Below, in pieces: positions 12,691 to 32,493 of a stretch of DNA of 32,493 nt. The notes below the pieces were generated by a model. It ran no database searches. It was not told the DNA's origin and worked only from the letters and a program-made list of their open reading frames with translations. How positions within the stretch are numbered: position 1 is the first letter of the stretch; each line of letters begins with the position of its first letter. Source of the DNA: Methanoregula sp. (GTDB lineage Archaea > Halobacteriota > Methanomicrobia > Methanomicrobiales > Methanospirillaceae); NCBI RefSeq assembly GCF_003170075.1, contig NZ_PMZU01000054.1, positions 1 to 32,493 of the forward strand, in the 5' to 3' direction. The position numbers were made by a program, and so were the translations under genes.

Positions 12691-12697
12691 TTTATTA
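12691..12697 (+). promoter_or_regulatory. TATA box, leaderless transcript
   Basis: TTTATTA, preceded by an A-rich BRE-like stretch, is centred 26 bp before the ATG at 12720. Transcription should therefore start at or next to the start codon, giving a leaderless mRNA. Confidence 0.55.
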
Positions 12698-12719
12698 AGC
12701 CCTTCTGCAATGTAGTAGT

Positions 12720-13082
12720 ATGGATTGGAGTGCAGAGCAGCGGAAAATTACAGAAAAATACAAGAAACTCGACGATATTCCTGAAACCGAGCGCAAATAC
12801 AAGTGCCATACCTGCCATCTCATCGTGGACCAGAACCCGTGCCCGAACTGCGGGGAGACCAAACTTGAGATCATGTGCCCGCTCGATAACTGCCACTGCA
12901 TGCATGAGATGATCTCCGGGATCGAGTATTGCCCCCTCTGCGGCAAGCCCGTCTGCCCCGAGTGCGGTTCCCATGATGTCGTCCAGATCAGCCGGGTGAC
13001 GGGGTACCTGCAGGACGTCTCCGGGTGGAATGCCGGCAAGCAGCAGGAACTCAAAGACCGCAAGCGCTACTCCGTTGCATGA
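12720..13082 (+). CDS. Stand-alone NrdD C-terminal (glycyl radical) domain protein
   Basis: A 120-residue protein that matches only the C-terminal end of anaerobic ribonucleotide reductase NrdD. The last third holds a zinc site (C71, C74, C79, C82 in CPLCGKPVCPECGS) and the glycyl-radical loop ISRVTGYLQDVSGWNAGK with G95 as the radical position, then KDRKRY as in NrdD. The first half adds more cysteine pairs (C29/C32, C41/C44, and C53, C58, C60). The ten-stranded barrel that does catalysis is missing. It may be a spare radical domain, a partner of a split reductase, or simply a zinc protein that kept the motif. Its stop overlaps the start of cbiZ, so they share a transcript. Confidence 0.75.
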   Translation: MDWSAEQRKITEKYKKLDDIPETERKYKCHTCHLIVDQNPCPNCGETKLEIMCPLDNCHCMHEMISGIEYCPLCGKPVCPECGSHDVVQISRVTGYLQDVSGWNAGKQQELKDRKRYSVA

Positions 13083-13975
13083 GATATTATCTCGATTCTG
13101 ATACTCTTTTTGTCCGCGGTGCGTTCCGCGCCGCAAGCACCGGTATCTCCGGCGGTATCCGGAGCGCCTCCACCCTCTTTAACCACACGGTTCCGGCCGA
13201 CTGGAGCCATGCTGAACCGGCAAAGGAGATCGAGCTCATCGCTGCTGCGGCCGGTGCCGGCAGGGACGTGCTGGGGCTTCTTACCGCCGTCCCGATCCGG
13301 AACCTCTGCGTGCTCCAGTACGATTTTATCACGGTCTTTGTGACCGCCGGCATCCGGCAGGAGCCGGCCGGAGCGAACGGTGCGGGGACGATCAACATCA
13401 TCGCGTACAGCAGCGAGGGGATGGAAGATTCGGCGCTGCTCGAAACGATCATGGTCGCGACCGAGGCCAAGACCGAGACCATGCTTGCCGCGGGCAGAGT
13501 CTCCGGCACCCCCACCGATGCCGTGATTGCCGCGTGCGAAGGGAGCATTCGGCACCGCTATGCCGGCCGGATCACGGAGCCGGGTCGGCGGGTACGGGAC
13601 GCGGTGCTCAAAGGAGTACCTGAAGCCCTCCGCCGCTACGAAAGCGGCTCGCTGAATGTGGAGCCGGCGTTTTTCATCTACAGCCGGTTCCAGGGAGAGC
13701 ACTGGGTGGAATGGTCGCCCCACAACTGCCCCTACTATCCCTGCCATTTCCCCGGCCAGCGCTGCGACTTCTGCTACTGCCCGTTTTACCCGTGCAAGAA
13801 CGAAGAGCTCGGCGAATGGTCAGATAGCTTATCAAACGGCCGGGTCTGGAACTGTTCGGGCTGCACCCTGCTGCATGAGCCGGCCGTTGCCGACTACCTG
13901 AAACAATATCCTGAAGCGCCGCTCGCGGAACTGGTGCGCTATAAAGAGAAACAAAAAAAGTGTTTTATTCCTTGA
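13079..13975 (+). CDS. cbiZ: Adenosylcobinamide amidohydrolase CbiZ with Cys-rich tail
   Basis: CbiZ cleaves the side chain of salvaged cobinamide to cobyric acid, letting archaea reuse incomplete corrinoids; methanogens need B12-type cofactors for methyl transfer. ATG 13079 overlaps the upstream stop (ATGA), and MRYYLDSDTLFVRGAFRAAS is a normal N-terminus. Residues 1-190 are the CbiZ domain (GTINIIAYSSEGM, VSGTPTDAVIAAC). Residues 210-275 are a fused cysteine-rich module (HNCPYYPCHF, CDFCYCPFYPC, WNCSGC) of the small cysteine-rich type seen next to cobalamin genes, with about ten cysteines, probably binding zinc or an iron-sulfur cluster. The fused 298-residue form is longer than plain CbiZ. 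Confidence 0.88.
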   Translation: MRYYLDSDTLFVRGAFRAASTGISGGIRSASTLFNHTVPADWSHAEPAKEIELIAAAAGAGRDVLGLLTAVPIRNLCVLQYDFITVFVTAGIRQEPAGANGAGTINIIAYSSEGMEDSALLETIMVATEAKTETMLAAGRVSGTPTDAVIAACEGSIRHRYAGRITEPGRRVRDAVLKGVPEALRRYESGSLNVEPAFFIYSRFQGEHWVEWSPHNCPYYPCHFPGQRCDFCYCPFYPCKNEELGEWSDSLSNGRVWNCSGCTLLHEPAVADYLKQYPEAPLAELVRYKEKQKKCFIP

Positions 13976-17264: not shown

Positions 17265-19157
17265 ATGATAAACAATTTGCCGGAAGCTCAGAAAATTGTC
17301 AAGAACCGTATGCTTGACCGGGCCGATCAGGAAACAGCTATCAAGGCAATGGACGACGGTGTCGAGACTGTCTGGGACCGTTTCGCCAGCCAGCAGCCGC
17401 AGTGCGGCTTCGGGAACCTCGGCGTCTGCTGCAACCGATGTGCCATGGGGCCCTGCCGTACCGAGCCGTTCGGGAAAAAACCGACCCGGGGTGTCTGCGG
17501 TGCGGAAGCCGATCTCATTGTCGCACGGAACCTGCTTGACGATCTTACCACCGGCGCTGCCGCCCACTCGGATCACGGGCGCGAAGTCGTCGAGGCAATG
17601 CTTGCGACCTCGGAAGGCCGGGCACAGGGGTACCAGATCCATGATGAAGGCAAGCTGCACGTGGTCGCGACAGAGTATGGCATAAAAACGGCCGGCCGGA
17701 AAAAAGAAGAGATCGCCGGCGAGCTGGCCCGGGCGCTGCTCGAAGAGTACGGGACGCTGAAAAACAGGATCCAGATGACCGAGCGTGCCCCTCAGAAAAC
17801 CAAAGACGCTTGGAAGAAGGCGGGGATTATGCCCCGCAGTGTCGACCGCGAGATCGTGGAGGCGATGCACCGGATCCACATGGGCGTCGATTCGGATTAC
17901 ACAAACATCCTCCTGCACGCGATGAGAACGGCCCTTTCCGACGGGTGGGGCGGCTCGATGATGGGAACCGATGCCTCCGATATCCTCTTTGGCACCCCGA
18001 CGCCGCTGAAGGCATGGATAAACCTTGCGACGATCAGCAGGGACAAGGTCAATATCGTCCTCCACGGGCACAACCCGGTCCTCTCCGATATGATCGTGAA
18101 GGCGGCAGCGGACCCGGGTCTCGTGAAGCGTGCAAAGGACGCCGGCGCAGCGGGTATCAACCTCGCCGGGATGTGCTGTACCGGGAACGAACTCCTCATG
18201 CGGCATGGCATCCCCCTTGCCGGCAGTTTCTTCGATCAGGAACTGGTGATTGCGACCGGGGCAATTGAGGCCATGGTGATCGACTACCAGTGCATCTTCC
18301 CCGCGGTAACCCAGACGGCCGGCTGTTACCACACAAAAGTCGTGACCACCAGCCGGAAGGCGAAGATCCCGGGCTCAATCTACAAGGAGTTCCGGCCGGA
18401 GAACGCCTACGACACCGCAAAGGAGATCATCGGACTTGCCATCGACAACTTCGCGAACCGGAACCCGGACCGGGTCAGGATCCCGGACAAGCCGATGCAG
18501 CTGATGTCGGGCTTCTCGGAAGAAGCGATCCGAAAGGCACTCGGCGGGACGTACAAGCCGCTGATCGATGCCATCGTTGCCGGGAAGATCAAGGGGGCCG
18601 TAGGTATTGTCGGCTGCAACAACCCGAAGATAAAGCAGGACTACGGCCATGTCACGCTGGCAAAAGAGCTGATCAGGCGGGACATTCTCGTGGTCGAGAC
18701 CGGGTGTGCCGCGATTGCATGCGGGAAGGCGGGCCTGCTCGTCCCCGAAGCCGCGGACATGGCAGGACCCGGGCTCAAGTCCGTCTGCAACGCGCTCGGC
18801 ATCCCGCCGGTGCTCCACATGGGCTCCTGCGTTGACTGCTCGCGCATCCTCGTGCTTGCCGCAAACATCGCAAAGGAACTCAATGTCGGTATCAGCGATC
18901 TTCCGCTGGGAGGAGCCGCACCCGAATGGTATTCGCAAAAAGCGATCTCGATCGGGACGTACTTTGTTGCATCGGGCGTCTACACAGTCCTTGGCATCGC
19001 ACCCAAGATTTTCGGGAGCAAGAACGTGGTAAACCTGCTTGCCGCCCAGCTCAACGGGGTCGTGAACGCGACGTTTGCAATAGAGCCGGACCCGGTAAAA
19101 GCCGCAGACCTTCTCGAAGCAGAGATCAACCGGAAGAGAAAGGCGCTTGGGATCTAA
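17265..19157 (+). CDS. cooS: Monofunctional Ni carbon monoxide dehydrogenase CooS
   Basis: CooS oxidises CO to CO2 (and can run backwards) at a Ni-Fe-S centre. The 630 residues are the usual length of the homodimeric bacterial-type enzyme, distinct from the CdhA subunit of the acetyl-CoA decarbonylase complex. Cluster D ligands C47 and C55 and cluster B ligands C56, C59, C64 and C78 have exactly the spacing known for the family. Candidates for the active C-cluster are H269 (LHGHNPVLS), C304 or C305 (AGMCCTGNEL), C343, C451 (GCNNPK), C481 and C522 (HMGSCVDC); K559 (SQKAISIGTY) is the expected acid-base lysine and H101/H104 (HSDHGRE) the proton path. A segment after C481 is about nine residues shorter than in the well-studied enzyme. 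AGGAGGGA precedes ATG 17265. Confidence 0.95.
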   Translation: MINNLPEAQKIVKNRMLDRADQETAIKAMDDGVETVWDRFASQQPQCGFGNLGVCCNRCAMGPCRTEPFGKKPTRGVCGAEADLIVARNLLDDLTTGAAAHSDHGREVVEAMLATSEGRAQGYQIHDEGKLHVVATEYGIKTAGRKKEEIAGELARALLEEYGTLKNRIQMTERAPQKTKDAWKKAGIMPRSVDREIVEAMHRIHMGVDSDYTNILLHAMRTALSDGWGGSMMGTDASDILFGTPTPLKAWINLATISRDKVNIVLHGHNPVLSDMIVKAAADPGLVKRAKDAGAAGINLAGMCCTGNELLMRHGIPLAGSFFDQELVIATGAIEAMVIDYQCIFPAVTQTAGCYHTKVVTTSRKAKIPGSIYKEFRPENAYDTAKEIIGLAIDNFANRNPDRVRIPDKPMQLMSGFSEEAIRKALGGTYKPLIDAIVAGKIKGAVGIVGCNNPKIKQDYGHVTLAKELIRRDILVVETGCAAIACGKAGLLVPEAADMAGPGLKSVCNALGIPPVLHMGSCVDCSRILVLAANIAKELNVGISDLPLGGAAPEWYSQKAISIGTYFVASGVYTVLGIAPKIFGSKNVVNLLAAQLNGVVNATFAIEPDPVKAADLLEAEINRKRKALGI

Positions 19158-19159
19158 AA

Positions 19160-19192
19160 CCCCCTCTGGAAGTTTTTTGTTTTTTTGGGGGG
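19160..19192 (+). promoter_or_regulatory. C5...G6 hairpin with T-runs between cooS and nuoE
   Basis: CCCCC (19160-19164) can pair with GGGGGG (19187-19192). The loop holds two T-runs (TTTTTTG TTTTTTT). The G-run also ends 4 bp before the nuoE ATG and is the only candidate ribosome site. The structure could partly end transcription after cooS or hide the start of nuoE, setting different levels for the two halves of the operon. Confidence 0.4.
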
Positions 19193-19196
19193 CATC

Positions 19197-19685
19197 ATGG
19201 AGGAAAAAACACTCGAAGAGATTATCGCCCGGTACGATTCGCCGACAGGAAAAGTTCTGGGTATTCTTGGCGATATCCAGCGCAGCGAAGGATACATTCC
19301 CCGCGAAACGCTGGAGATGCTCTCGGTAAAAATTGACGTACGCATCTCACAGCTCTACAGCATTGTCACGTTCTATTCGTTCTTCAGCCTGAAACCGGTT
19401 GGAGAGCACGTGATTACGATCTGCATGGGAACCGCCTGCCATGTAAGGGGTGCAGTTGGGGTCCTCGATGCGCTTGAGAGCCTGCTCGACATCCACGGCG
19501 ACACCACAGAGGACGGAAAATTCTCGGTCACCACAAAAGACAACAAATTCACGGTCGAGATCGCCCGGTGTTTCGGGGCATGCAGCATGGCGCCGGTCCT
19601 CCAGATCGACGGCACCCTCTACGGGTACGCGAACCCGGATACTCTGCCGGCCATCCTTGAACAGTATGGGTGGAGGGCAGCATGA
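19197..19685 (+). CDS. NuoE/HndA-like [2Fe-2S] subunit
   Basis: The small thioredoxin-fold iron-sulfur subunit of NADH dehydrogenase and bifurcating hydrogenase modules (NuoE, HoxE, HydC, HndA). The 162 residues show the helical N-terminus (KVLGILGDIQRSEGYIP, RISQLYSIVTFYSFFSLKP) and the four cluster ligands C76, C81 (CMGTACHVRGA), C125 and C129 (CFGACSMAPVLQID). ATG 19197 is used; a TTG at 19185 is also in frame. The stop overlaps the start of the NuoF-like gene, so translation is coupled. In a methanogen such a subunit without complex I points to an acquired NAD(P)-linked module. Confidence 0.92.
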   Translation: MEEKTLEEIIARYDSPTGKVLGILGDIQRSEGYIPRETLEMLSVKIDVRISQLYSIVTFYSFFSLKPVGEHVITICMGTACHVRGAVGVLDALESLLDIHGDTTEDGKFSVTTKDNKFTVEIARCFGACSMAPVLQIDGTLYGYANPDTLPAILEQYGWRAA

Positions 19686-21367
19686 CCGGAGTTTTTGATC
19701 GCGCCGCGGGAGAGGTGGCCGGGCAAAAAAAGATCCTGCCCGGAAAACCCCGGATCGCGGTCGGCCTTGCCACCTGCGGCATCGCGGTGGGCGGGGAAAA
19801 AGTCTACGAACGGTTACAGGAGATTATCAAAAAAACCGGTGTCGATATCAGTCTTGCCAAGACTGGCTGTATCGGCTACTGCCGGGAAGAGCCACTGGTC
19901 AACATCACGATCCCGGGAAAACCGCTGGTGATCCTTCACAAGGTGACGGAGGAGGACGCGGAAGGGATTGTGGAAGCCGTGAAGAAAGGCACCGTGCCGT
20001 ACAAAAAGGCGCTCTGCCGGGTGCCCTCGTGGGACCATGTGACCGGCACCGTTATCACGTACGGGAACGGATTTGACGAAATACCGCTCTACGCCGATAT
20101 CCCGTTCTTTAAGCACCAGAAAAAAGTGATCCTCCGGAACGCCGGCTTCATCAACCCCGAGGATATCGATGAATACCTTGCGGTGGGCGGGTATGCCGCA
20201 GCAGAGCAGGCTCTGACAAGGATGGACTCCGAGACCATCATCTCCGAAGTGGAAAAATCCGGGCTCCGGGGCCGGGGCGGCGCCGGTTTTCCCACGGGCA
20301 TGAAATGGCGGATCACCCGGGATGCGCCGGGAGCGGCAAAGTACATTATCTGCAATGCCGACGAGGGCGATCCCGGGGCATACATGAACCGCAACGAGAT
20401 GGAGAGCGATCCCCACATGCTCATTGAAGGCATGATCATCGGGGCCTATGCGATTGGGGCAAAGGAGGGCCTGATCTATATCCGGGCCGAGTACCCGCTT
20501 GCCATCAGGAGGCTTGTGCACGCCATCGGCGAGGCCCGGGCCTTGGGGCTCCTCGGGAAAGATATCATCGGGGCCGGATTTGATTTCGATATCCGGATCG
20601 CGACCGGTGCCGGTGCATTCGTGTGCGGCGAATCCACGGCCCTTGTCGCATCGATCGAGGGGCGGACCGGCCGGCCCCACCCCCGTCCTCCCCGGCTCAC
20701 GGATCCCGGCGGGGGGCTCTGGGGCATTCCCTCGGATCTCAACAATGTCGAGACATGGTGCAATATCCCGGTTATCATCAGAAACGGGAGCGGCTGGTAC
20801 GCGAAGATCGGGGCGGAAAAAAATGCCGGCACCAAGGTTTTCTCGCTCGTGGGAAAAGTCGACCGGGTCGGTCTTGTCGAAGTCCCGCTCGGGACATCGT
20901 TAAACACGATCGTCTGTGACATTGGAAACGGGGGCGCTCAGGGAAAAAAGGTAAAAGCCGTCCAGACCGGCGGACCTTCCGGCGGCTGTATCCCGGTCCG
21001 GCTCTTTGATACACCGGTGAATTATGAAAGCCTCAATGCGGTCGGTTCGATCATGGGCTCCGGGGGGATTGTCGTGATGGACGAAGACACGGACATGGTC
21101 GATATCGCCCGGTATTTCATCAACTTTGCAACCGGTGAATCCTGCGGGAAATGCGTCCCGTGCCGGGAAGGACTCCGGCACACACTCATCCTGCTTAACC
21201 GGCTCATAGCCCGGAAGGGAACGGCAAAGGACCTTGAAACGCTCGCGCTGCTGGCCGATACGATCAAAAACACGTCGCTGTGCGGCCTCGGGCAGTCTGC
21301 ACCAAACCCGGTCCTGACCACATTGGCGTATTTTAGGGAAGAATACGATGCGCTGGTGAAACCATGA
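19682..21367 (+). CDS. NuoF/HndC-like NAD(P)H- and FMN-binding subunit
   Basis: The flavin subunit where NAD(P)H meets the iron-sulfur chain. In 561 residues: an N-terminal thioredoxin-like [2Fe-2S] domain of the HndC/HydB kind (TCGIAVGG at 31-38, GCIGYC at 62-67), the FMN/NADH fold (GLRGRGGAGFPTGMKW at 194-209; ICNADEGDPGAYMNR; AGAFVCGESTALVASIEG), an SLBB-like part (VQTGGPSGGCIP), and a [4Fe-4S] site C488, C491, C494 and C534 (CGKCVPCREG...CGLGQSAPNP). The two extra C-terminal [4Fe-4S] clusters common in HydB/HndC are absent: the chain stops about 27 residues after C534. GGAGG precedes ATG 19682, which overlaps the nuoE stop. Confidence 0.93.
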   Translation: MTGVFDRAAGEVAGQKKILPGKPRIAVGLATCGIAVGGEKVYERLQEIIKKTGVDISLAKTGCIGYCREEPLVNITIPGKPLVILHKVTEEDAEGIVEAVKKGTVPYKKALCRVPSWDHVTGTVITYGNGFDEIPLYADIPFFKHQKKVILRNAGFINPEDIDEYLAVGGYAAAEQALTRMDSETIISEVEKSGLRGRGGAGFPTGMKWRITRDAPGAAKYIICNADEGDPGAYMNRNEMESDPHMLIEGMIIGAYAIGAKEGLIYIRAEYPLAIRRLVHAIGEARALGLLGKDIIGAGFDFDIRIATGAGAFVCGESTALVASIEGRTGRPHPRPPRLTDPGGGLWGIPSDLNNVETWCNIPVIIRNGSGWYAKIGAEKNAGTKVFSLVGKVDRVGLVEVPLGTSLNTIVCDIGNGGAQGKKVKAVQTGGPSGGCIPVRLFDTPVNYESLNAVGSIMGSGGIVVMDEDTDMVDIARYFINFATGESCGKCVPCREGLRHTLILLNRLIARKGTAKDLETLALLADTIKNTSLCGLGQSAPNPVLTTLAYFREEYDALVKP

Positions 21368-22212
21368 CACAGGGAAAGACCGGTACGGAACTTGCAGAGC
21401 CGCCAAAAAAACCGGTGACGGTCTCCATCAACGGGAATGCGTACCGGGCGGACGAGGGGGAGTGTCTTTTAACCGTTGCAGAACGCGTGAAAATCCCCAT
21501 TCCCCATTTCTGCTTTGAACAGTCGCTCGAACCGTACGGCGCCTGCCGGCTCTGCATGGTCGGGGTTGTCCACCACGGGAAGACCGTGATGGAGACGGCC
21601 TGCACCCTGCGAGCAAAAGAAGGCCTCACGGTCCTGACCGATACACCGGATATCGTGAAGTACCGGACCATCCTCTTCGAGCTGTACCTCGCCGAAGCAC
21701 CCAAATCTGCGGTCGTAAAGGAGATGGCCGCCCGGTACGGCGTGACAAAGACGCGGTTCCTGAGAAGGGTCGATACCGGCGACCCGCTCGGTGGCGCCTG
21801 TATCCTCTGCGGGTTATGCGTCCGGGTCTGCAACGAGATCATGGGTGCCGGCGCAATCAACTTCATCAACCGCGGCCCGTACACCGTGGTCAACACGCCC
21901 TTTACCGAACCGAGCCGGGACTGTTACGGGTGCGGTGCCTGTGCGGCCGTCTGCCCGACGCATGCAGTCAGTCTCGAAGACCGTGGCGGTGAACGGATCC
22001 TGCACTCATGGAGCGAGACAAAAGTTCCGTTGTCGCAGTGCGTGTCGTGCGGGAAGTACTTTGCGCCGGCGGCACTCGAAAAATCCGTGCTCTCCCGGAT
22101 CGAGCCCCCGCTGCGGGACGATCTCGAGGGACTCTGCCCGGCCTGCCGGGCAAAAAAGCTGGCGAAAAAAGAGATCCTTGCAGCAACGGGAGGAGATCCG
22201 GGCGATGCCTGA
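21364..22212 (+). CDS. HoxU/HndD-like iron-sulfur subunit without H-cluster domain
   Basis: An electron-wiring subunit of 282 residues, resembling the N-terminal part of HydA/HndD or HoxU. In order: a plant-type [2Fe-2S] domain (C50, C61, C64, C80; PYGACRLCMVGV), a linker, two [4Fe-4S] sites (C146/C149/C152/C156 in CILCGLCVRVC and C187/C190/C193/C197 in CYGCGACAAVCP), and a tail with two C-x2-C pairs (C226/C229 in CVSCGKYF, C258/C261 in CPACR). The His-Cys3 cluster found in HoxU and NuoG is missing, and so is the hydrogenase active-site domain. It overlaps nuoF by 4 bp and cooC by 8 bp. The likely job is to link CooF/CooS to the flavin subunit. Confidence 0.85.
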   Translation: MTQGKTGTELAEPPKKPVTVSINGNAYRADEGECLLTVAERVKIPIPHFCFEQSLEPYGACRLCMVGVVHHGKTVMETACTLRAKEGLTVLTDTPDIVKYRTILFELYLAEAPKSAVVKEMAARYGVTKTRFLRRVDTGDPLGGACILCGLCVRVCNEIMGAGAINFINRGPYTVVNTPFTEPSRDCYGCGACAAVCPTHAVSLEDRGGERILHSWSETKVPLSQCVSCGKYFAPAALEKSVLSRIEPPLRDDLEGLCPACRAKKLAKKEILAATGGDPGDA

Positions 22213-23095
22213 AAGCCGGGCAGAGCGGGAGAAGATCCTTGGTGTCGCCCATGCGATCGAGCGGAGCACGCACAAGGAACCGGAGAGAGGGTTCCGCGTC
22301 ATCATCACCGGGAAAGGCGGGGTGGGAAAGACCACCATCACGGCACTCTTGTCCCACCTCCTCTCAAAAGACGGCTTTACCCTTCTTGCGGTTGACGAGG
22401 ACCCGCAGATGAACCTGCCCTATGCTCTCGGCGTGCCAAAAGAGCAGGGCGACGCGGTGGTCCCGCTCACCAAAAACCTCGATTATGTGGAAGAGAAGAC
22501 CGGCGCCCGCCCGGGTGCCGGCTGGGGATCTCTCCTCAGGCTCAACCCGGATGTTTCCGATGTCGTCGAACGGTTCGGGATCAAAGGCCCCGGTGGCATC
22601 AGCATCCTTGTCATGGGAACGGTCGTGGCGCCGGCGACCGGGTGTCTCTGCCCTGAAAATGCGCTCCTTGAGGCGATCGTCCGGTACATCAACCTGCGGG
22701 AACGGGAGGTCATTCTCATGGATACGCAGGCCGGCGTGGAACACTTCGGCCGGTCGCTCGCACAGGGATTCGACCAGGCAGTCCTTGTCACCGACCCGAC
22801 GTTCAACGCGGTACAGGTAGCCCTGCATGCAGCACGACTCGCAAGAGCCCTCGGGATTCCCACCCGCCATCTCGTCATCAACCGGGTCCGCTCGGAAAAT
22901 GATATTAAAAAAGTCCGGGGGCTCATTGCCGGTTCGGAAGATCTGTTCACGGATCAGGTTGTCCTGCCCTACGACGAACAGCTCATCGAGTGCGAGCCAG
23001 GCGTGGAACCGCTCCTTGCCGGACCGGCAGTGTCGCCGTTCGTTGAGGGTGTGCGAACGCTCAAAGCGACACTTGTGCGGTTCGGGACACCATAA
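22205..23095 (+). CDS. cooC: CooC-type nickel-insertion ATPase
   Basis: A MinD/ParA-like P-loop ATPase that helps load nickel into CooS. The 296-residue protein starts at ATG 22205 inside the end of the previous gene. It has the deviant Walker A GKGGVGKTT (36-44), the switch segment AVDEDPQMNLPYALG, and the C-x-C pair C147/C149 (GCLCPENALLEAIV) that binds the metal at the dimer face in CooC. MDTQAGVEHFGRSLAQG follows, as in the family. Its place as the last gene of the operon with cooS makes the assignment firm. No Ni-binding histidine tail is seen. Confidence 0.92.
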   Translation: MPESRAEREKILGVAHAIERSTHKEPERGFRVIITGKGGVGKTTITALLSHLLSKDGFTLLAVDEDPQMNLPYALGVPKEQGDAVVPLTKNLDYVEEKTGARPGAGWGSLLRLNPDVSDVVERFGIKGPGGISILVMGTVVAPATGCLCPENALLEAIVRYINLREREVILMDTQAGVEHFGRSLAQGFDQAVLVTDPTFNAVQVALHAARLARALGIPTRHLVINRVRSENDIKKVRGLIAGSEDLFTDQVVLPYDEQLIECEPGVEPLLAGPAVSPFVEGVRTLKATLVRFGTP

Positions 23096-23619: not shown

Positions 23620-24828
23620 TTATTCATGCCGGAGTGCATCGATCGGGCTGAGGTTTGCCGCATGCCACGCCGGATACAACCCGCAGAGAAGACAGATGAT
23701 GATCCCAAACCCTACACCCTCAACAACCGACATCATACTTGTAACCGTAAAGAGGTACTGGGTGGTCTTGAACATCAGGGCACTTATCGCGTAGCCGGCA
23801 ATGAGACTGATGAAACCCCCGATCAGGCTCCCGACGATTCCGATAATAGCGGCCTCGTAGATGAACATGCTCATCACCTCTTTTTTCTGGGTGCCGATAC
23901 TGCGCATGATCCCGATCTCTTTGATCCGCTCGTTGACCGACATCATCATGATATTGAAGATGGAGACACCGGCGACAATCATCGAGATCCCGCCAATGGC
24001 CGTAACAAAGGTCGTGACCGTGCCAAACGTCTCGTAGATGGATGCAAGCGTCGCCTTGCTGTCGATCACGCTCACGGTCTTGTCCTTGGTGTTCCGGTTA
24101 AGCTGCTTCTCAATCGTGGTCTTTACACTGGCAGTATCGCCGCTCGTTACCTTGACCACTACTTCGTTGTACTCGTTCTGGTCGTTGTAGGTGTTCTCGA
24201 ACCAGTCCTTGGTCGCCACAATGGCATTATCGGTGCTGATATCGAAACTCATCCCCCGTTCCTTGATAATACCGGTGACCCGGAGCGCCCCGTACTCGCC
24301 GTCTTTACCAATGGAAATTCTCGACCCGACCTTGAGATTATGATCTTTTGCAAAGGTCGATCCTACGAGGCAACCGGAATTCCCGTTGCTGTAGTCGCCG
24401 GATTCGAGATCGGGAAGCAGGTCCTTTGTCTGGTCTGTTGGCAGGCCGTAGATCATCGCAACGATGTCGTCGCTGCCCACCCCCACTTTCATGTGCTCCG
24501 ATGTCGAGTGGACCGGGATCGCCACGTTCGGGGCGACCGCACGTTTGATCTGCTGGTAATTCTGGTCGGTAAGTTTTAAGTCGGCCGAGCTTCCTCCGCC
24601 ACCCCCGCCGCCCATACCCATACCGCCGCCACCGGCGTACGGGGTGACAATCACGCTGTCCCCGACAGATGAGAGACTCGCGGAAACCACCTGTACCACG
24701 CTGTTCCCGAGGATCCCCATGGATGCGATGGCAACAACACCGATGATAATCCCGAGCATCGCAAGGGTCGAGCGCAGCATGTGGATCCGGATGTTCCGTT
24801 TCGAAATCTCCCAGAATATCGTGCTCAT
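23620..24828 (-). CDS. MacB-like ABC transporter permease (copy 1)
   Basis: A 402-residue FtsX/MacB-type membrane subunit. One N-terminal helix (MLRSTLAMLGIIIGVVAIA, about 18-36) is followed by a glycine-rich stretch (about 65-80), a large outside domain to about residue 265, and three C-terminal helices with the FtsX pattern (FNIMMMSVNERIKEIGIMRS, then IGTQKKEVMSMFIYEAAIIG). It ends in ANLSPIDALRHE, typical of the family. Such proteins do not form a channel but pass force from the ATPase to an outer partner, for export of peptides, lipids or drugs. The ATG overlaps the ATPase stop by 4 bp. Confidence 0.92.
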   Translation of the reverse strand: MSTIFWEISKRNIRIHMLRSTLAMLGIIIGVVAIASMGILGNSVVQVVSASLSSVGDSVIVTPYAGGGGMGMGGGGGGGSSADLKLTDQNYQQIKRAVAPNVAIPVHSTSEHMKVGVGSDDIVAMIYGLPTDQTKDLLPDLESGDYSNGNSGCLVGSTFAKDHNLKVGSRISIGKDGEYGALRVTGIIKERGMSFDISTDNAIVATKDWFENTYNDQNEYNEVVVKVTSGDTASVKTTIEKQLNRNTKDKTVSVIDSKATLASIYETFGTVTTFVTAIGGISMIVAGVSIFNIMMMSVNERIKEIGIMRSIGTQKKEVMSMFIYEAAIIGIVGSLIGGFISLIAGYAISALMFKTTQYLFTVTSMMSVVEGVGFGIIICLLCGLYPAWHAANLSPIDALRHE

Positions 24829-25496
24829 TGCGCAATTCTCCCGTCAACAATCCTGATGATCCGATCCGAATATTCGGCTATGTGGGGATCATGCGTGACA
24901 ATGATGATGGTCGCACCTTTATGGTGCAGCTCGGTCATGAGCTCCATGATGCTTGCCCCGGTCTTTGAATCGAGGTTCCCCGTAGGTTCATCACAGAGGA
25001 GGATGTCGGGATCATTAATGAGTGCCCGTGCAACGGCAACACGCTGCTGCTGGCCTCCCGAAAGCTCGAGCGGGGTGTGGGTATAGAACCGTTCCTCAAG
25101 CTGGACGGCCCGGAGCACTTCGATCGCTTTTTTTTCATCGACCTGTTTCTGTGATTTGAGCATCTGGGGAAAACTGACGTTCTCGATGATATTTAAGAGG
25201 GGAAAGAGGTTGAAGTACTGGAAGATGAACCCGATGCGGTCCCTTCGCAGGTTGGTGAGTTCGACATCGCTCATGTCATGGACACCAATCCCGCTGATGA
25301 AGATATACCCTGTGGTGGGGGTGTCAAGGCAGCCCATCATGTTCAGGAGTGTGGACTTGCCCGAACCCGACGGCCCCATGATCGAGATGAACTCCCCGCG
25401 TTCCACGGTAAAGGAGATGTGATCGAGGGCCGTCACATCCCCGGCTTTGAGCGGGTAGATTTTTACGACATCCTTAAACTGGATTACCGGAACCAT
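24825..25496 (-). CDS. MacB/LolD-type ABC ATPase (copy 1)
   Basis: A 223-residue ATPase driving the adjoining permease. Walker A is GPSGSGKST (41-49), the Q-loop FIFQYFNLFP, the signature LSGGQQQRVAVARAL, Walker B ILLCDEPTGNLD and the H-loop VTHDPH. ATG 25496 (MVPVIQFKDVVKIYP) gives the same length as copy 2; the open frame upstream overlaps the previous gene and is not used. Copy 1 has a tyrosine (GYIFISG) where copy 2 and most relatives have an acid (GDIFISG). Confidence 0.94.
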   Translation of the reverse strand: MVPVIQFKDVVKIYPLKAGDVTALDHISFTVERGEFISIMGPSGSGKSTLLNMMGCLDTPTTGYIFISGIGVHDMSDVELTNLRRDRIGFIFQYFNLFPLLNIIENVSFPQMLKSQKQVDEKKAIEVLRAVQLEERFYTHTPLELSGGQQQRVAVARALINDPDILLCDEPTGNLDSKTGASIMELMTELHHKGATIIIVTHDPHIAEYSDRIIRIVDGRIAQ

Positions 25497-25506
25497 GGCC
25501 GGGGCC

Positions 25507-26700
25507 TCACTGTTTTTTGATCCGTCTGGTGTAATAGTACCAGCCGCCGGCTGCGAGAATGACAATGAGGATAATTCCCGGGAAGAGGAGCGGGTTCCCC
25601 TGCTGGTTTGCGGTATCAGTCAGTGCTGCACCAAAGATGCCGACATCCTGCTGGGACGAGATGACATTCCCGTCCGAGTCCTTATAGGATACCTGGATTG
25701 GTACACTGACCGTGTTGTTTGCTGCCGTGAAAGTTACTTCAAAACTGCCAAAATCGTCCGGCTTAAGTGCACCGATCACGTAGGACCGGTACGGGTCCTG
25801 GGGAGTCGCCGGGAATAATGCCGTAACCGTCACACCATTTGCTGTCGTGAGGCCGGCGTTTGTCACATCTCCGGTAACGTGATAGACCCCGTCGGTGAGT
25901 TTCACCTCAACATTGCTGACCTTGGGAGTTGCCTGTTTCTTGTCGGTCCCAAACGTTACCGGTAAGGATTGGGTAACTGAGTGGTGGTTGTCCCCGTTGT
26001 CATATTTCACCGTCATGATGAGAACGGACTCGGTATCCGGGGTGACGGAAAATGTCGCATTTATGGCAGAATTTGCGCCAAGCCACCCAAGGTACTGCTC
26101 CGATGGGGTTATTGTCGTCCCGTTCCCGACTACGTCAATGATGACATTTTTTACATCGTTTTGCCGGGGGTTGGCAATCTGGACGGTGATCGTATCTTTT
26201 TTCCCAGCGGTGAAGGTATCCGGTGTGCTTATGACACTCAGTATAATGGGCGTATTGTCAACCTTGACCGGAGTACGGTAATACAGGCTGTCCGCATCCC
26301 GGAAACCAAGAGAGAACGTCGGGTAATACGTACCGTCCAGCTTATCGGTCATAACGTTAAACACGTACGTCCGGGTCTGGAGCGGGCCGACATTGGACGA
26401 AGAATCGTACGAGCCGCTGGTGAGACGGATATCATTATCGCCAAACGTCGCATGGTTGAACATGACGCCGTCGGTGGTATTGCCGGTATTGGTATTGCCG
26501 TTGGTGACGGCAAAGGTCACCGTTGCGGTATCCCCGGTGAAAAGAACGGCAGGGTCGATGGTTATATTGGATACGTATACTCTTCCTGCAGCAGTAATCG
26601 AATCCGTTGTTGTGTAACCACTCACCGGAAGGACGAGCGCTCCGAATACCACAAGAAGGAACATGAATAGTACAAAACCGGTTCGGGTGCTGCGGGGCAT
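25507..26700 (-). CDS. Anchored extracellular protein of the ABC unit (copy 1)
   Basis: A 397-residue exported protein of the COG1361 S-layer-like kind often found with MacB-type transporters in methanogens. ATG 26700 (MPRSTRTGFVLFMFLLVV) starts a signal peptide ending near GALVLPVSGY. Beta-rich, CARDB-like repeats follow (ITVQIANPRQNDVKNVIIDV; YHVTGDVTNAGLTTANGVTV), with asparagine-rich glycosylation-type sites, then one C-terminal membrane helix (LLFPGIILIVILAAGG) and a basic tail (YYYTRRIKKQ). It probably sits outside the cell, anchored by that helix, and gates or receives the exported substrate. It lies 10 bp before the ATPase gene. Confidence 0.87.
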   Translation of the reverse strand: MPRSTRTGFVLFMFLLVVFGALVLPVSGYTTTDSITAAGRVYVSNITIDPAVLFTGDTATVTFAVTNGNTNTGNTTDGVMFNHATFGDNDIRLTSGSYDSSSNVGPLQTRTYVFNVMTDKLDGTYYPTFSLGFRDADSLYYRTPVKVDNTPIILSVISTPDTFTAGKKDTITVQIANPRQNDVKNVIIDVVGNGTTITPSEQYLGWLGANSAINATFSVTPDTESVLIMTVKYDNGDNHHSVTQSLPVTFGTDKKQATPKVSNVEVKLTDGVYHVTGDVTNAGLTTANGVTVTALFPATPQDPYRSYVIGALKPDDFGSFEVTFTAANNTVSVPIQVSYKDSDGNVISSQQDVGIFGAALTDTANQQGNPLLFPGIILIVILAAGGWYYYTRRIKKQ

Positions 26701-26741
26701 ACACCGTGCCCCTTTTCCCAAAACACCCTGCCTCCTTTCAA

Positions 26742-26787
26742 ACAATATATCCCGGATTCCATGGCCATTTACAAAGCGGTTATATAA
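26742..26787 (-). promoter_or_regulatory. Tandem TATA boxes of ABC unit 1
   Basis: On the minus strand CTTATATAACC (26778-26788) and GGATATATTG (26743-26752) lie 80 and 47 bp before the ATG at 26700. A GGAGG follows the second. Two start sites are possible. Confidence 0.45.
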
Positions 26788-26838
26788 GAACATTCGCGCA
26801 TCCTCGGTTCTGCAGTTTCCTTCTGCATATAGTTCCAC

Positions 26839-29775: not shown

Positions 29776-30981
29776 TCATTCATGCCGCAGCGCATCGATC
29801 GGGTTGAGGTTTGCTGCCTGCCATGCCGGATACAACCCGCAGAGAAGACAGACAATAATCCCAAACCCGACGCCCTCGACAATCGACTGCATGCTCGCCA
29901 CGGTAAAGAGGTACTGGGTGGTACCGAGCATCAGGGCACTGACAGCATAGCCAGCAAGGAGACTGAGGAGCCCGCCGATCAGGCTCCCCACGACACCGAT
30001 AATGGCAGCCTCGTAGATGAACATGCTTATCACCTCCCTTTTCTGGGTACCGATGCTGCGCATGATCCCGATCTCCTTGATCCGCTCGTTGACCGACATC
30101 ATCATGATATTGAAGATGGAGACCCCGGCGACAATCATTGAGATCCCACCAATGGCCGTAACAAAGGTCGTGACGGTGCTAAACGTCTCGTAGATGGTCG
30201 AGAGTGTTGCCTTGCTGTCCGTCACGGAAACCGTCTTTTCTTTGATGTTCCGGTTGAGCTGCTTTTCGATGGTGGTCTTTACATCGGCAGTGTCACCGCT
30301 GGTAACCTTGACGACCACTTCGTTGTACTCATCCTTGTCGTTGTAGGTATTCTCAAACCAGTCCTGTGTCGCAACGATGGCGCTGTCAGTACTGATATCG
30401 AAACTCATTCCCCGTTCCTTGATAATACCGGTAACCCTGAGCGTACCGTACTCGCTGTCCGTACCAATGGAAATCCGCGACCCGACTTGGACATTATGAT
30501 CTTTTGCAAAGGTCGATCCCACAAGGCATCCGGAGTTCCCATTGCTGTAGTCACCGGATTGGAGATCGGGCAGCAGGTTTTTCACCTTGTCCGTCGGGAG
30601 ACCGTAAATGGTCGCCACGATATCGTCGCTGCCAACCCCGACTTTCATGTGCTCTGATGTGGAATGAACGGGAATCGCCACGTTCGGGGCGACCGCCCGT
30701 TTAATCTGCTGGTAATTCTGGTCGGTAAGTTTTAAGTCGGCCGAGCTTCCTCCGCCACCACCACCCATCCCCGTACCGCCACCACCGGCGTACGGGGTGA
30801 CAATCACGCTGTCCCCAACCGAAGAGAGACTCGAGCTGATCTCCTGCGTCATGCTGTTCCCGAGGATCCCCATGGACGCGATGGCGACGACACCGATGAT
30901 AATCCCAAGCATCGCAAGGGTCGAGCGCAGCATGTGGATCCGGATGTTTCGTTTCGAGATCTCCCAGAATATCTTGCTCAT
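29776..30981 (-). CDS. MacB-like ABC transporter permease (copy 2)
   Basis: A 401-residue paralogue of the gene at 23620, with the same single N-terminal helix, outside domain and three C-terminal helices. It is one residue shorter in the glycine-rich stretch, which reads GGGGTGMGGGGGGSS here. Differences gather just after the first helix (MTQEISSSLSS against VVQVVSASLSS) and in the last third. It ends ANLNPIDALRHE. The start overlaps the ATPase stop by 4 bp. Confidence 0.92.
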   Translation of the reverse strand: MSKIFWEISKRNIRIHMLRSTLAMLGIIIGVVAIASMGILGNSMTQEISSSLSSVGDSVIVTPYAGGGGTGMGGGGGGSSADLKLTDQNYQQIKRAVAPNVAIPVHSTSEHMKVGVGSDDIVATIYGLPTDKVKNLLPDLQSGDYSNGNSGCLVGSTFAKDHNVQVGSRISIGTDSEYGTLRVTGIIKERGMSFDISTDSAIVATQDWFENTYNDKDEYNEVVVKVTSGDTADVKTTIEKQLNRNIKEKTVSVTDSKATLSTIYETFSTVTTFVTAIGGISMIVAGVSIFNIMMMSVNERIKEIGIMRSIGTQKREVISMFIYEAAIIGVVGSLIGGLLSLLAGYAVSALMLGTTQYLFTVASMQSIVEGVGFGIIVCLLCGLYPAWQAANLNPIDALRHE

Positions 30982-31649
30982 GCTGCAATTCTCCCGTCAA
31001 CAATCCTGATAATCCGCTCCGAATATTCGGCTATGTGGGGATCGTGCGTGACAATAATGATGGTCGCACCCTTATGGTGCAGCTCGGTCATGAGCTCCAT
31101 GATGCTTGCCCCGGTTTTTGAATCGAGGTTCCCCGTAGGTTCATCGCACAGGAGGATATCCGGATCATTAATGAGCGAACGCGCAACCGCAACACGCTGC
31201 TGCTGGCCTCCTGATAACTCGAGCGGGGTGTGGGTATAGAACCGTTCCTCAAGCTGGACGGCACGAAGGACTTCGATCGCTTTTTTTTCATCGACCTGTT
31301 TCTGGCTTTTGAGCATCTGGGGAAAACTGACGTTCTCGATGATATTTAAGAGGGGAAAGAGGTTGAAGTACTGGAAAATGAATCCGATGCGGTCCCGCCT
31401 CAGGTTGGTGAGTTCGACGTCGCTCATGTCGCGGACACCAATCCCGCTTATGAAGATATCCCCGGTGGTCGGGGTGTCAAGGCAGCCCATCATGTTCAGG
31501 AGTGTTGACTTGCCCGAACCCGACGGCCCCATGATCGAGATGAACTCCCCGCGTTCCACGGCAAAGGAGATGTGATCAAGGGCCGTCACATCTCCTGCCT
31601 TGAGCGGGTAGACTTTCACCACGTCCTTAAACTGGATTGCCGGAACCAT
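30978..31649 (-). CDS. MacB/LolD-type ABC ATPase (copy 2)
   Basis: A 223-residue ATPase with intact Walker A, Q-loop, LSGGQQQRVAVARSL signature, Walker B and H-loop. By eye it differs from copy 1 at eight positions (4, 13, 30, about 64 and 73, 157, 212 and 223), mostly conservative. Both copies should therefore be active and could swap partners. ATG 31649 matches the start used in copy 1. Confidence 0.94.
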   Translation of the reverse strand: MVPAIQFKDVVKVYPLKAGDVTALDHISFAVERGEFISIMGPSGSGKSTLLNMMGCLDTPTTGDIFISGIGVRDMSDVELTNLRRDRIGFIFQYFNLFPLLNIIENVSFPQMLKSQKQVDEKKAIEVLRAVQLEERFYTHTPLELSGGQQQRVAVARSLINDPDILLCDEPTGNLDSKTGASIMELMTELHHKGATIIIVTHDPHIAEYSERIIRIVDGRIAA

Positions 31650-31660
31650 GGCCTGTAGCC

Positions 31661-32493
31661 TCACTGTTTTTTGATCCGTTTGTTGTAGAAGTACCAGCCA
31701 CCGGCTGCGAGAATGACAATGATGATAATCCCCAGGAAGAGGAGCGGGTTCCCCTGCTGGTTCGCGGTATCGGCCTTTGCACCGGAAATGCCGACATCCT
31801 GCTGGACCGAGATGACATTCCCGTCCGAGTCCTTATAGGATATCTGGATTGGTACACTGACCGTGTTGTTTGCTGCCGTGAAAGTTACTTCAAAACTGCC
31901 AAAATCGTCCGGCTTAAGTGCACCGATCACATAGGATCGGTACGGGTCCTCTGGGATCGCCGGGGATAATGCCGTAACTGTCACACCATTGGCGGTTGTG
32001 AGGCCGGCGTTTGTCACATCTCCGGTAACATGATAGACCCCGCTGGTGAGTGTCACCTCAACATTGCTGATCTTGGGGGTTGCCTGTTTCTTGTCGGTCC
32101 CAAACGTTACCGGTAATGACTGGGTAACTGAGTGATGGTTGTCCCCGTTATCATATTTTACCGTCATGGTCAGGACTGATTCCGTATCCGGGGTAACAGA
32201 AAACGTCACATTTGTGGCGGAGTTTGCGCTGAGCGCACCGAGATACTGGCTGGAGGGAGTTACCGTTGTCCCGTTACCGGTTGCTTCAATGATGACATTT
32301 TTTACATCGTTTTGCCGGGGGTTGGCGATCTGCACGGTTACCGATTCCTTCTTTCCCTGCGTGAACGTGTCCGGCTTGCTTATAACGCTCATCATAAGGG
32401 GGGTATTGTCCACTTTTACCGGCGTACGGTAATACAGGCTGTCCGCATCCCGTAAATTAAGAGAGAACGTCGGGTAATACGTACCGTCCAGCT
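31661..32493 (-). CDS. Anchored extracellular protein of the ABC unit (copy 2, partial)
   Basis: The C-terminal 276 or so residues of a paralogue of the gene at 25507; the reading frame stays open to the right edge, so the signal peptide lies outside the window. An ATG-like codon at 32413 is internal and not the start, because the residues upstream (LDGTYYPTFSLNLRDADS) match copy 1. The same beta-rich repeats and C-terminal helix (LLFLGIIIIVILAAGG) with basic tail (YFYNKRIKKQ) are present. Copy 2 has a short gap in the linker before the helix (ISGAKADTAN against IFGAALTDTAN). Confidence 0.87.
   Translation of the reverse strand, partial: LDGTYYPTFSLNLRDADSLYYRTPVKVDNTPLMMSVISKPDTFTQGKKESVTVQIANPRQNDVKNVIIEATGNGTTVTPSSQYLGALSANSATNVTFSVTPDTESVLTMTVKYDNGDNHHSVTQSLPVTFGTDKKQATPKISNVEVTLTSGVYHVTGDVTNAGLTTANGVTVTALSPAIPEDPYRSYVIGALKPDDFGSFEVTFTAANNTVSVPIQISYKDSDGNVISVQQDVGISGAKADTANQQGNPLLFLGIIIIVILAAGGWYFYNKRIKKQ

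Follow-up and report, generated by a model that had tools for sequence, protein, structure and literature searches.

In the glycyl radical enzymes known to us, the radical is part of the catalytic chain. Separate radical domains that serve as spare parts are described, in the accessible parts of PMC8683613, as validated for pyruvate formate-lyase (PFL) only, with the remark that they may exist for other enzymes. For the class III ribonucleotide reductase NrdD, the accessible text on the Prevotella copri enzyme lets the core domain end at residue 671 and assigns residues 676-739 to the glycyl-radical domain (GRD), for which rigid-body movement is expected and disorder is described in the presence of deoxyadenosine triphosphate (PMC11226230). 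Here we analyse a GRD that is encoded on its own, in a window comprising the whole 32,493-nt stretch of the Methanoregula sp. contig NZ_PMZU01000054.1. The protein in question has 120 residues and is very probably the radical subunit of an obligate two-polypeptide class III ribonucleotide reductase cut into two genes. A literature search, carried out mostly without subscription journals, returned no report of an NrdD radical domain that is split off or stands alone, and none is mentioned in the accessible parts of PMC9669993, PMC9531940, PMC11528403, PMC2795772, PMC3653736, PMC3267527, PMC8683613, PMC11226230 and PMC2686161.

Results and Discussion

The small protein aligns with its residues 68-117 to positions 508-562 of the 562 positions of Pfam NRDD (E 2.3e-14, 53.4 bits at a cut-off of 26.2), and its best relative in the PDB is chain 8p23 of a class III, anaerobic reductase, matched over about the last 40 residues (E 1.4e-6), so that the identity of the domain lies far above chance. 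By Pfam NRDD as well as TIGR02487 the domain is of the NrdD type; a PFL-type glycine radical domain was not found in a Pfam scan with E up to 0.1, which gave NRDD and zinc-ribbon-type families only. A first-pass annotation of the window had proposed just such a separate NrdD domain, ending in a zinc site and the radical loop, devoid of a catalytic barrel and carrying two further cysteine groups in its N-terminal half. The open reading frame and the NRDD and 8p23 matches bear out this description, with the following features:

12720-13082, plus strand: stand-alone NrdD GRD protein, 120 aa, ATG to TGA, assigned by Pfam and PDB matches and by orthologues
12804-12851, plus strand: N-terminal cysteine group C29/C32/C41/C44, a probable zinc ribbon (113/113 conserved; predicted metal binding)
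12876-12905, plus strand: second cysteine group C53/C58/C60/H62 (C53, C60 and H62 in 113/113, C58 in 109/113; putative metal binding)
12930-12965, plus strand: GRD zinc site C71/C74/C79/C82 (113/113 conserved; C-terminus of Pfam NRDD; predicted metal site)
12990-13040, plus strand: glycyl-radical loop SRVTGYLQDVSGWNAGK, residues 91-107 (profile match, PDB match and alignments)
13002-13004, plus strand: codon of the radical glycine G95, the Gly of RVTGY (G in 113/113 distinct sequences)

G95, which we take to be the radical carrier as in the known NrdD family, is invariant in all 113 distinct small proteins together with 11 of the 12 Cys/His ligand candidates, C58 being the exception. The first ~60 residues are Cys-rich, and both extra cysteine groups are absent from the C-termini of the fused NrdDs compared.

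The only other NRDD match in the source genome (1.92 Mb, 77 contigs, 97 % complete) is a 728-aa protein encoded on another contig (L001:1114-3300). This large NrdD covers NRDD positions 1-510 (E 2.9e-134). It contains the catalytic barrel and its cysteines, shows a weak match to an ATP cone, and stops after the last barrel segment with the C-terminus ...GYFAFTRDLTVSLRQFREYRPDKKTISQWAPTDIPAKA, a point from which fused relatives run on into the zinc site and then RVTGY or RITGY. The two proteins are thus complementary in their coverage of the family, the barrel ending at position 510 and the small protein supplying 508-562. Judged by the P. copri domain limits given in the accessible part of PMC11226230, the split coincides with the natural border between the domains, and the tail of the barrel after this point is short (~27 residues) and variable. 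What class III reductases unite on one chain is distributed here over two genes: the radical domain is not on the barrel's own chain, and the catalytic barrel with the active-site cysteines is found in the partner and not in the small protein.

The first-pass annotation had left open whether the small protein is a split-off subunit or a spare domain that repairs damaged enzyme, and had named the C-terminus of the genome's own nrdD as the place to look. As the only nrdD has no radical domain, this organism lacks an intact enzyme that could be repaired, which retains the first option and dismisses the second for this genome. Nor did the two observations that could overturn the idea turn up: no complete nrdD was found elsewhere in the source genome, and the glycine is lost in none of the 113 distinct orthologous sequences.

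The residues of the barrel agree with this division of labour. Cysteines 185, 411, 414, 415 and 453 are present in 42/42 split and 16/16 fused rows. The split barrels no longer have the zinc cysteines of the fused type (C at position 702 in 6/42 and at position 716 in 0/42), as would follow if that site is now contributed by the small protein. Cys685, near the C-terminus of the large NrdD (L001), occurs in 42/42 split versus 0/16 fused barrels and is a possible interface residue. A glutaredoxin-like gene lies directly upstream of the large nrdD in the source genome and upstream in 55 of 67 nrdD loci.

To follow the split through the order, which consists of methane-producing archaea, 150 Methanomicrobiales genomes were surveyed. 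NRDD matches occur in 126 of them, five being weak and domain-sized only (genomes 62-85 % complete), which leaves barrel matches in 121. The stand-alone protein is essentially whole in 122 genomes, with one further fragment at a contig end, and outside the source genome its identity amounts to 63-93 %. Three genomes hold the barrel without the small protein (G038, G139 and G086; 71, 84 and 93 % complete). Neither piece was found in 24 genomes, all from genus g24 (family f6); having lost both pieces together, this genus reads as a clean class III knockout made by nature. The named relatives from a genome scan, in which 80 of 229 confirmed loci were kept, all belong to Methanomicrobiales or to undetermined Euryarchaeota bins and include Methanoregula, Methanolinea, Methanospirillum, Methanoculleus and Methanofollis.

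Read to the stop codon, all 45 barrel rows of the order are devoid of a GRD and all 26 outgroup rows contain one, a few of these rows representing the same gene more than once. In the barrel tree, the truncated barrels group as a single clade (41 rows versus 16 fused; support of 100 in the Shimodaira-Hasegawa-like approximate likelihood ratio test, SH-aLRT). In a first tree, the root region stayed unsettled with four divergent paralogues included, and the tree was rebuilt without them; the rows dropped (L025, L082, L096, L116, L118-L121, L123, L124, L128, L136, L137 and L142) were intein-broken, partial, duplicate or divergent. A single split, older than the families of the order, explains this distribution. 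One of the loci (L096, G034) carries the truncated nrdD in two near-identical copies ~15 kb apart.

Very long NrdD frames of 1170-2008 aa occur in G004, G040, G084, G116 and other genomes from several families, with the NRDD match broken at ~53 and ~260, a pattern as expected of inteins and suggestive of them. This hint also gives some footing to the idea that the two halves are joined into one chain by split inteins or RNA trans-splicing. Neither the ~27-residue variable tail of the barrel nor the ~60-residue Cys-rich start of the small protein matches an intein family, however, and the small gene starts with an ATG behind a promoter of its own, which makes joining very unlikely.

Activation of a class III enzyme calls attention to NrdG2, a radical S-adenosylmethionine activase, which is encoded at a third locus. 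In 26 of 28 genomes tested, among them the source genome, its model (TIGR02495) scored over the cut-off; the two genomes below it are g24 genomes without NrdD. We also considered that the small protein might serve a glycyl radical enzyme other than NrdD, as might be read from the fact that its gene does not adjoin nrdD. Of 34 genomes tested, 33 gave no PFL-like enzyme, G121 being the single exception, which in nearly all of them leaves no plausible client other than NrdD; the NrdD type of the domain and its loss together with NrdD in genus g24 speak against another client too, and we regard this as extremely improbable.

A catalytic match of the class I/II type (PF02867) was not found in 16 of the 150 genomes. 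Eleven of these are at least 90 % complete, all eleven carry both split pieces, and in none of them did a monomeric class II model find a match, so that the split pieces must be their supply of deoxynucleoside triphosphates. One of the eleven, G113 (= L157 by coordinates), is the complete chromosome CP121470.1 of Methanoregula sp. SKADARSKE-2. Among the 24 g24 genomes, all without NrdD, PF02867 was detected in 23, and the exception, G141, is 79 % complete. That the truncated NrdD is decaying or repurposed, with the small protein acting as a zinc-ribbon regulator, would be in keeping with the many genomes of the order that also encode a class I/II-type reductase. It fits poorly with the eleven near-complete genomes in which no other reductase was detected and with a radical glycine and flanking residues that are invariant across the order, and is accordingly given little credence.

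Combining these data, a working cycle for the two-chain enzyme can be sketched. The N-terminal zinc-ribbon part of the small protein probably docks the small subunit on the barrel. NrdG2 would generate the glycyl radical on G95 of the separate small subunit, whose radical loop would then enter the barrel and give rise to a thiyl radical on the active-site cysteine, while the glutaredoxin-like protein encoded directly upstream of nrdD may donate the electrons.

The split, its age, the complementary domain content, the conserved residues, the joint loss and the genomes with no other detectable reductase are shown by the data, whereas physical assembly, the radical on the small protein, docking by the N-terminal ribbons, the order of activation and docking and the nature of the reductant are deduced from sequence. 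Several points weigh against a two-chain enzyme. A class I/II-type reductase is encoded in 134 of the 150 genomes, and the split enzyme may be dispensable there. The small and large genes are unlinked in the single-contig genomes G017, G093 and G113 and lie 17 kb apart in G069, so that operon logic lends no support. The fold prediction of the small protein from a 38-row alignment reached a predicted local distance difference test (pLDDT) score of 71 and a predicted template modelling (pTM) score of 0.53, with residues 102-114, which include part of the radical loop, below 50 in pLDDT. Fold searches with the predicted structure gave no match in Foldseek (E up to 0.001) and none with Z > 2.5 in VIA-align; the entries listed are mostly small zinc-binding domains, NrdD not among them, an absence that carries no weight, as the loop may need the barrel in order to fold. 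Finally, G001 (L083, L122) encodes a divergent, complete NrdD-like open reading frame of 569 aa with a RVSGYLE loop in addition to the split pair.

Outside the order most NrdDs are fused. Stand-alone domains were nevertheless found beside an intact fused NrdD in four genomes of one genus (G208, G216, G228 and G265) and two of another (G279 and G302), at these loci:

L129, L130, L131, L132, L133, L134: outgroup stand-alone proteins beside fused NrdD

They share the zinc site and the loop and have an N-terminus with partly related cysteine positions. The neighbours of their genes are not conserved: a desulfoferrodoxin (superoxide reductase) gene is found near two of the four g62 stand-alone loci (L130 and L132), and an mvhD-fdhA-fdhB run beside one of the two g83 copies (L134:3983-4522). 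One copy, in G233 (L135:3843-4127), looks decayed, its loop running into an unrelated end after GW. A phage search returned nine records with partial matches, six annotated as anaerobic reductase and three without annotation.

These outgroup proteins are candidate spare parts for the fused NrdD, and it is here that the spare-part option of the first-pass annotation, which fails in the source organism, retains its value. Applied to the small protein of Methanoregula, it would mean that the radical domain of an oxygen-cleaved NrdD is replaced in the manner of YfiD/GrcA for PFL. A small autonomous GRD with an additional N-terminal part, the copies next to intact NrdDs and the two desulfoferrodoxin neighbours would all suit that role, yet neither the source genome nor the order holds an intact NrdD to repair, bar the divergent frame of G001, and we judge it unlikely. 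The outgroup copies suggest that a free domain existed first, the Methanomicrobiales barrel losing its own copy later. In the GRD tree of 39 columns, a single clade of stand-alone proteins was neither rejected (approximately unbiased test, p-AU 0.715) nor demonstrated. With some reserve we lean towards an obligate two-subunit enzyme that evolved from NrdD spare parts of the kind seen in sister lineages through loss of the barrel's own domain, and that would keep its radical permanently on an exchangeable 14-kDa protein, allowing for an off-switch or repair by swapping or degrading this subunit.

The surroundings of the small gene comprise two further features:

12691-12698, plus strand: TATA element TTTATTAA, spanning -29 to -22 relative to the ATG (placement and A/T content conserved across 105 loci; leaderless promoter with predicted transcription start)
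13079-13975, plus strand: cbiZ, adenosylcobinamide amidohydrolase with a Cys-rich domain (Pfam CbiZ, E 9.6e-34), overlapping the GRD stop codon

Across the 105 small-gene loci, an A/T-rich TATA element stands at -29 to -24 with an A/T fraction of 0.92-1.0 per column, and the start codon is ATG in every case. This spacing fits leaderless transcription of the small gene, in line with the promoter already noticed in the first-pass annotation. The GRD stop and the cbiZ start overlap as ATGA at 13079-13082, and in 87 of 99 loci the GRD gene is followed by cbiZ within 100 nt on the same strand, the distance being larger in the other 12. The gene order deoxyhypusine synthase (DHS), pyrF, GRD, cbiZ and a protein with an oligonucleotide/oligosaccharide-binding (OB) fold is conserved across families of the order; at the cbiZ loci of genus g24, no DHS or PyrF match was found within ~1.5 kb on each side. 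The pairing with cbiZ that the first-pass annotation had noted is hence real, and it is order-wide. The accompanying idea that B12-dependent and radical reductases alternate does not explain it, because the pairing persists in genomes lacking class II (L157=G113, L075=G047, L076=G077, L077=G146 and L065=G018). We consider cbiZ probably a neighbour and not part of the enzyme.

Elsewhere in the window, positions 17265-23095 resemble, from translated reading frames only, a carbon monoxide dehydrogenase, subunits of the NADH-dehydrogenase/hydrogenase type and a CooC-like ATPase. Two near-duplicate modules at 23620-25565 and 29776-31664 read like ATP-binding cassette (ABC) transporters with permease and ATPase; ahead of each, a similar protein of extracellular type is encoded on the minus strand (25507-26838 and 31661-32413).

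Conclusion

If the two-chain reading is true, it represents a new arrangement for an essential enzyme, with the reaction chamber and the radical residing on separate proteins. A separate radical protein ancestral to an order would offer a natural two-part system for studying the formation, docking and protection of the radical, and it bears on the question, raised in the accessible parts of PMC8683613, whether radical-domain proteins act in trans on glycyl radical enzymes besides PFL. There are consequences for annotation as well, as the small subunit is lost under a length filter of 400-1100 residues, like the one given in the accessible part of PMC9531940, and an NrdD devoid of the radical loop would appear broken.

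In comparison with known systems, the pair shares with the fused class III NrdDs of T4, E. coli, P. copri and the archaeal L113 the barrel cysteines, the zinc site and the RVTGY loop, as well as an NrdG2 activase and a glutaredoxin-like partner gene. It differs from them in that the radical domain forms a polypeptide of its own, with an unlinked gene and its own 60-residue Cys-rich N-terminus. With YfiD/GrcA and T4 Y06I, described as PFL spare parts in the accessible sections of PMC8683613, the small protein has in common that it is a small autonomous radical-loop protein, here presumably also acting on a barrel in trans. Unlike YfiD/GrcA, its domain is of the NrdD and not the PFL type, the source genome holds no intact client, its own NrdD lacking a GRD, and the small protein would be obligate because the partner barrel has no radical domain. 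Split class II NrdJa/NrdJb, as far as covered in the available parts of PMC9669993 and PMC3267527, likewise distributes a reductase catalytic chain over two polypeptides, albeit in a different class. The split nrdA of phage Aeh1 and the fragmented phage nrdD are also reductase genes in pieces; according to the accessible text of PMC3653736, such phage splits are, in the cases with a known cause, linked to homing endonucleases, introns or inteins and stay local to single phage lineages, whereas the split in Methanomicrobiales is one ancient event at a domain border, with two unlinked genes.
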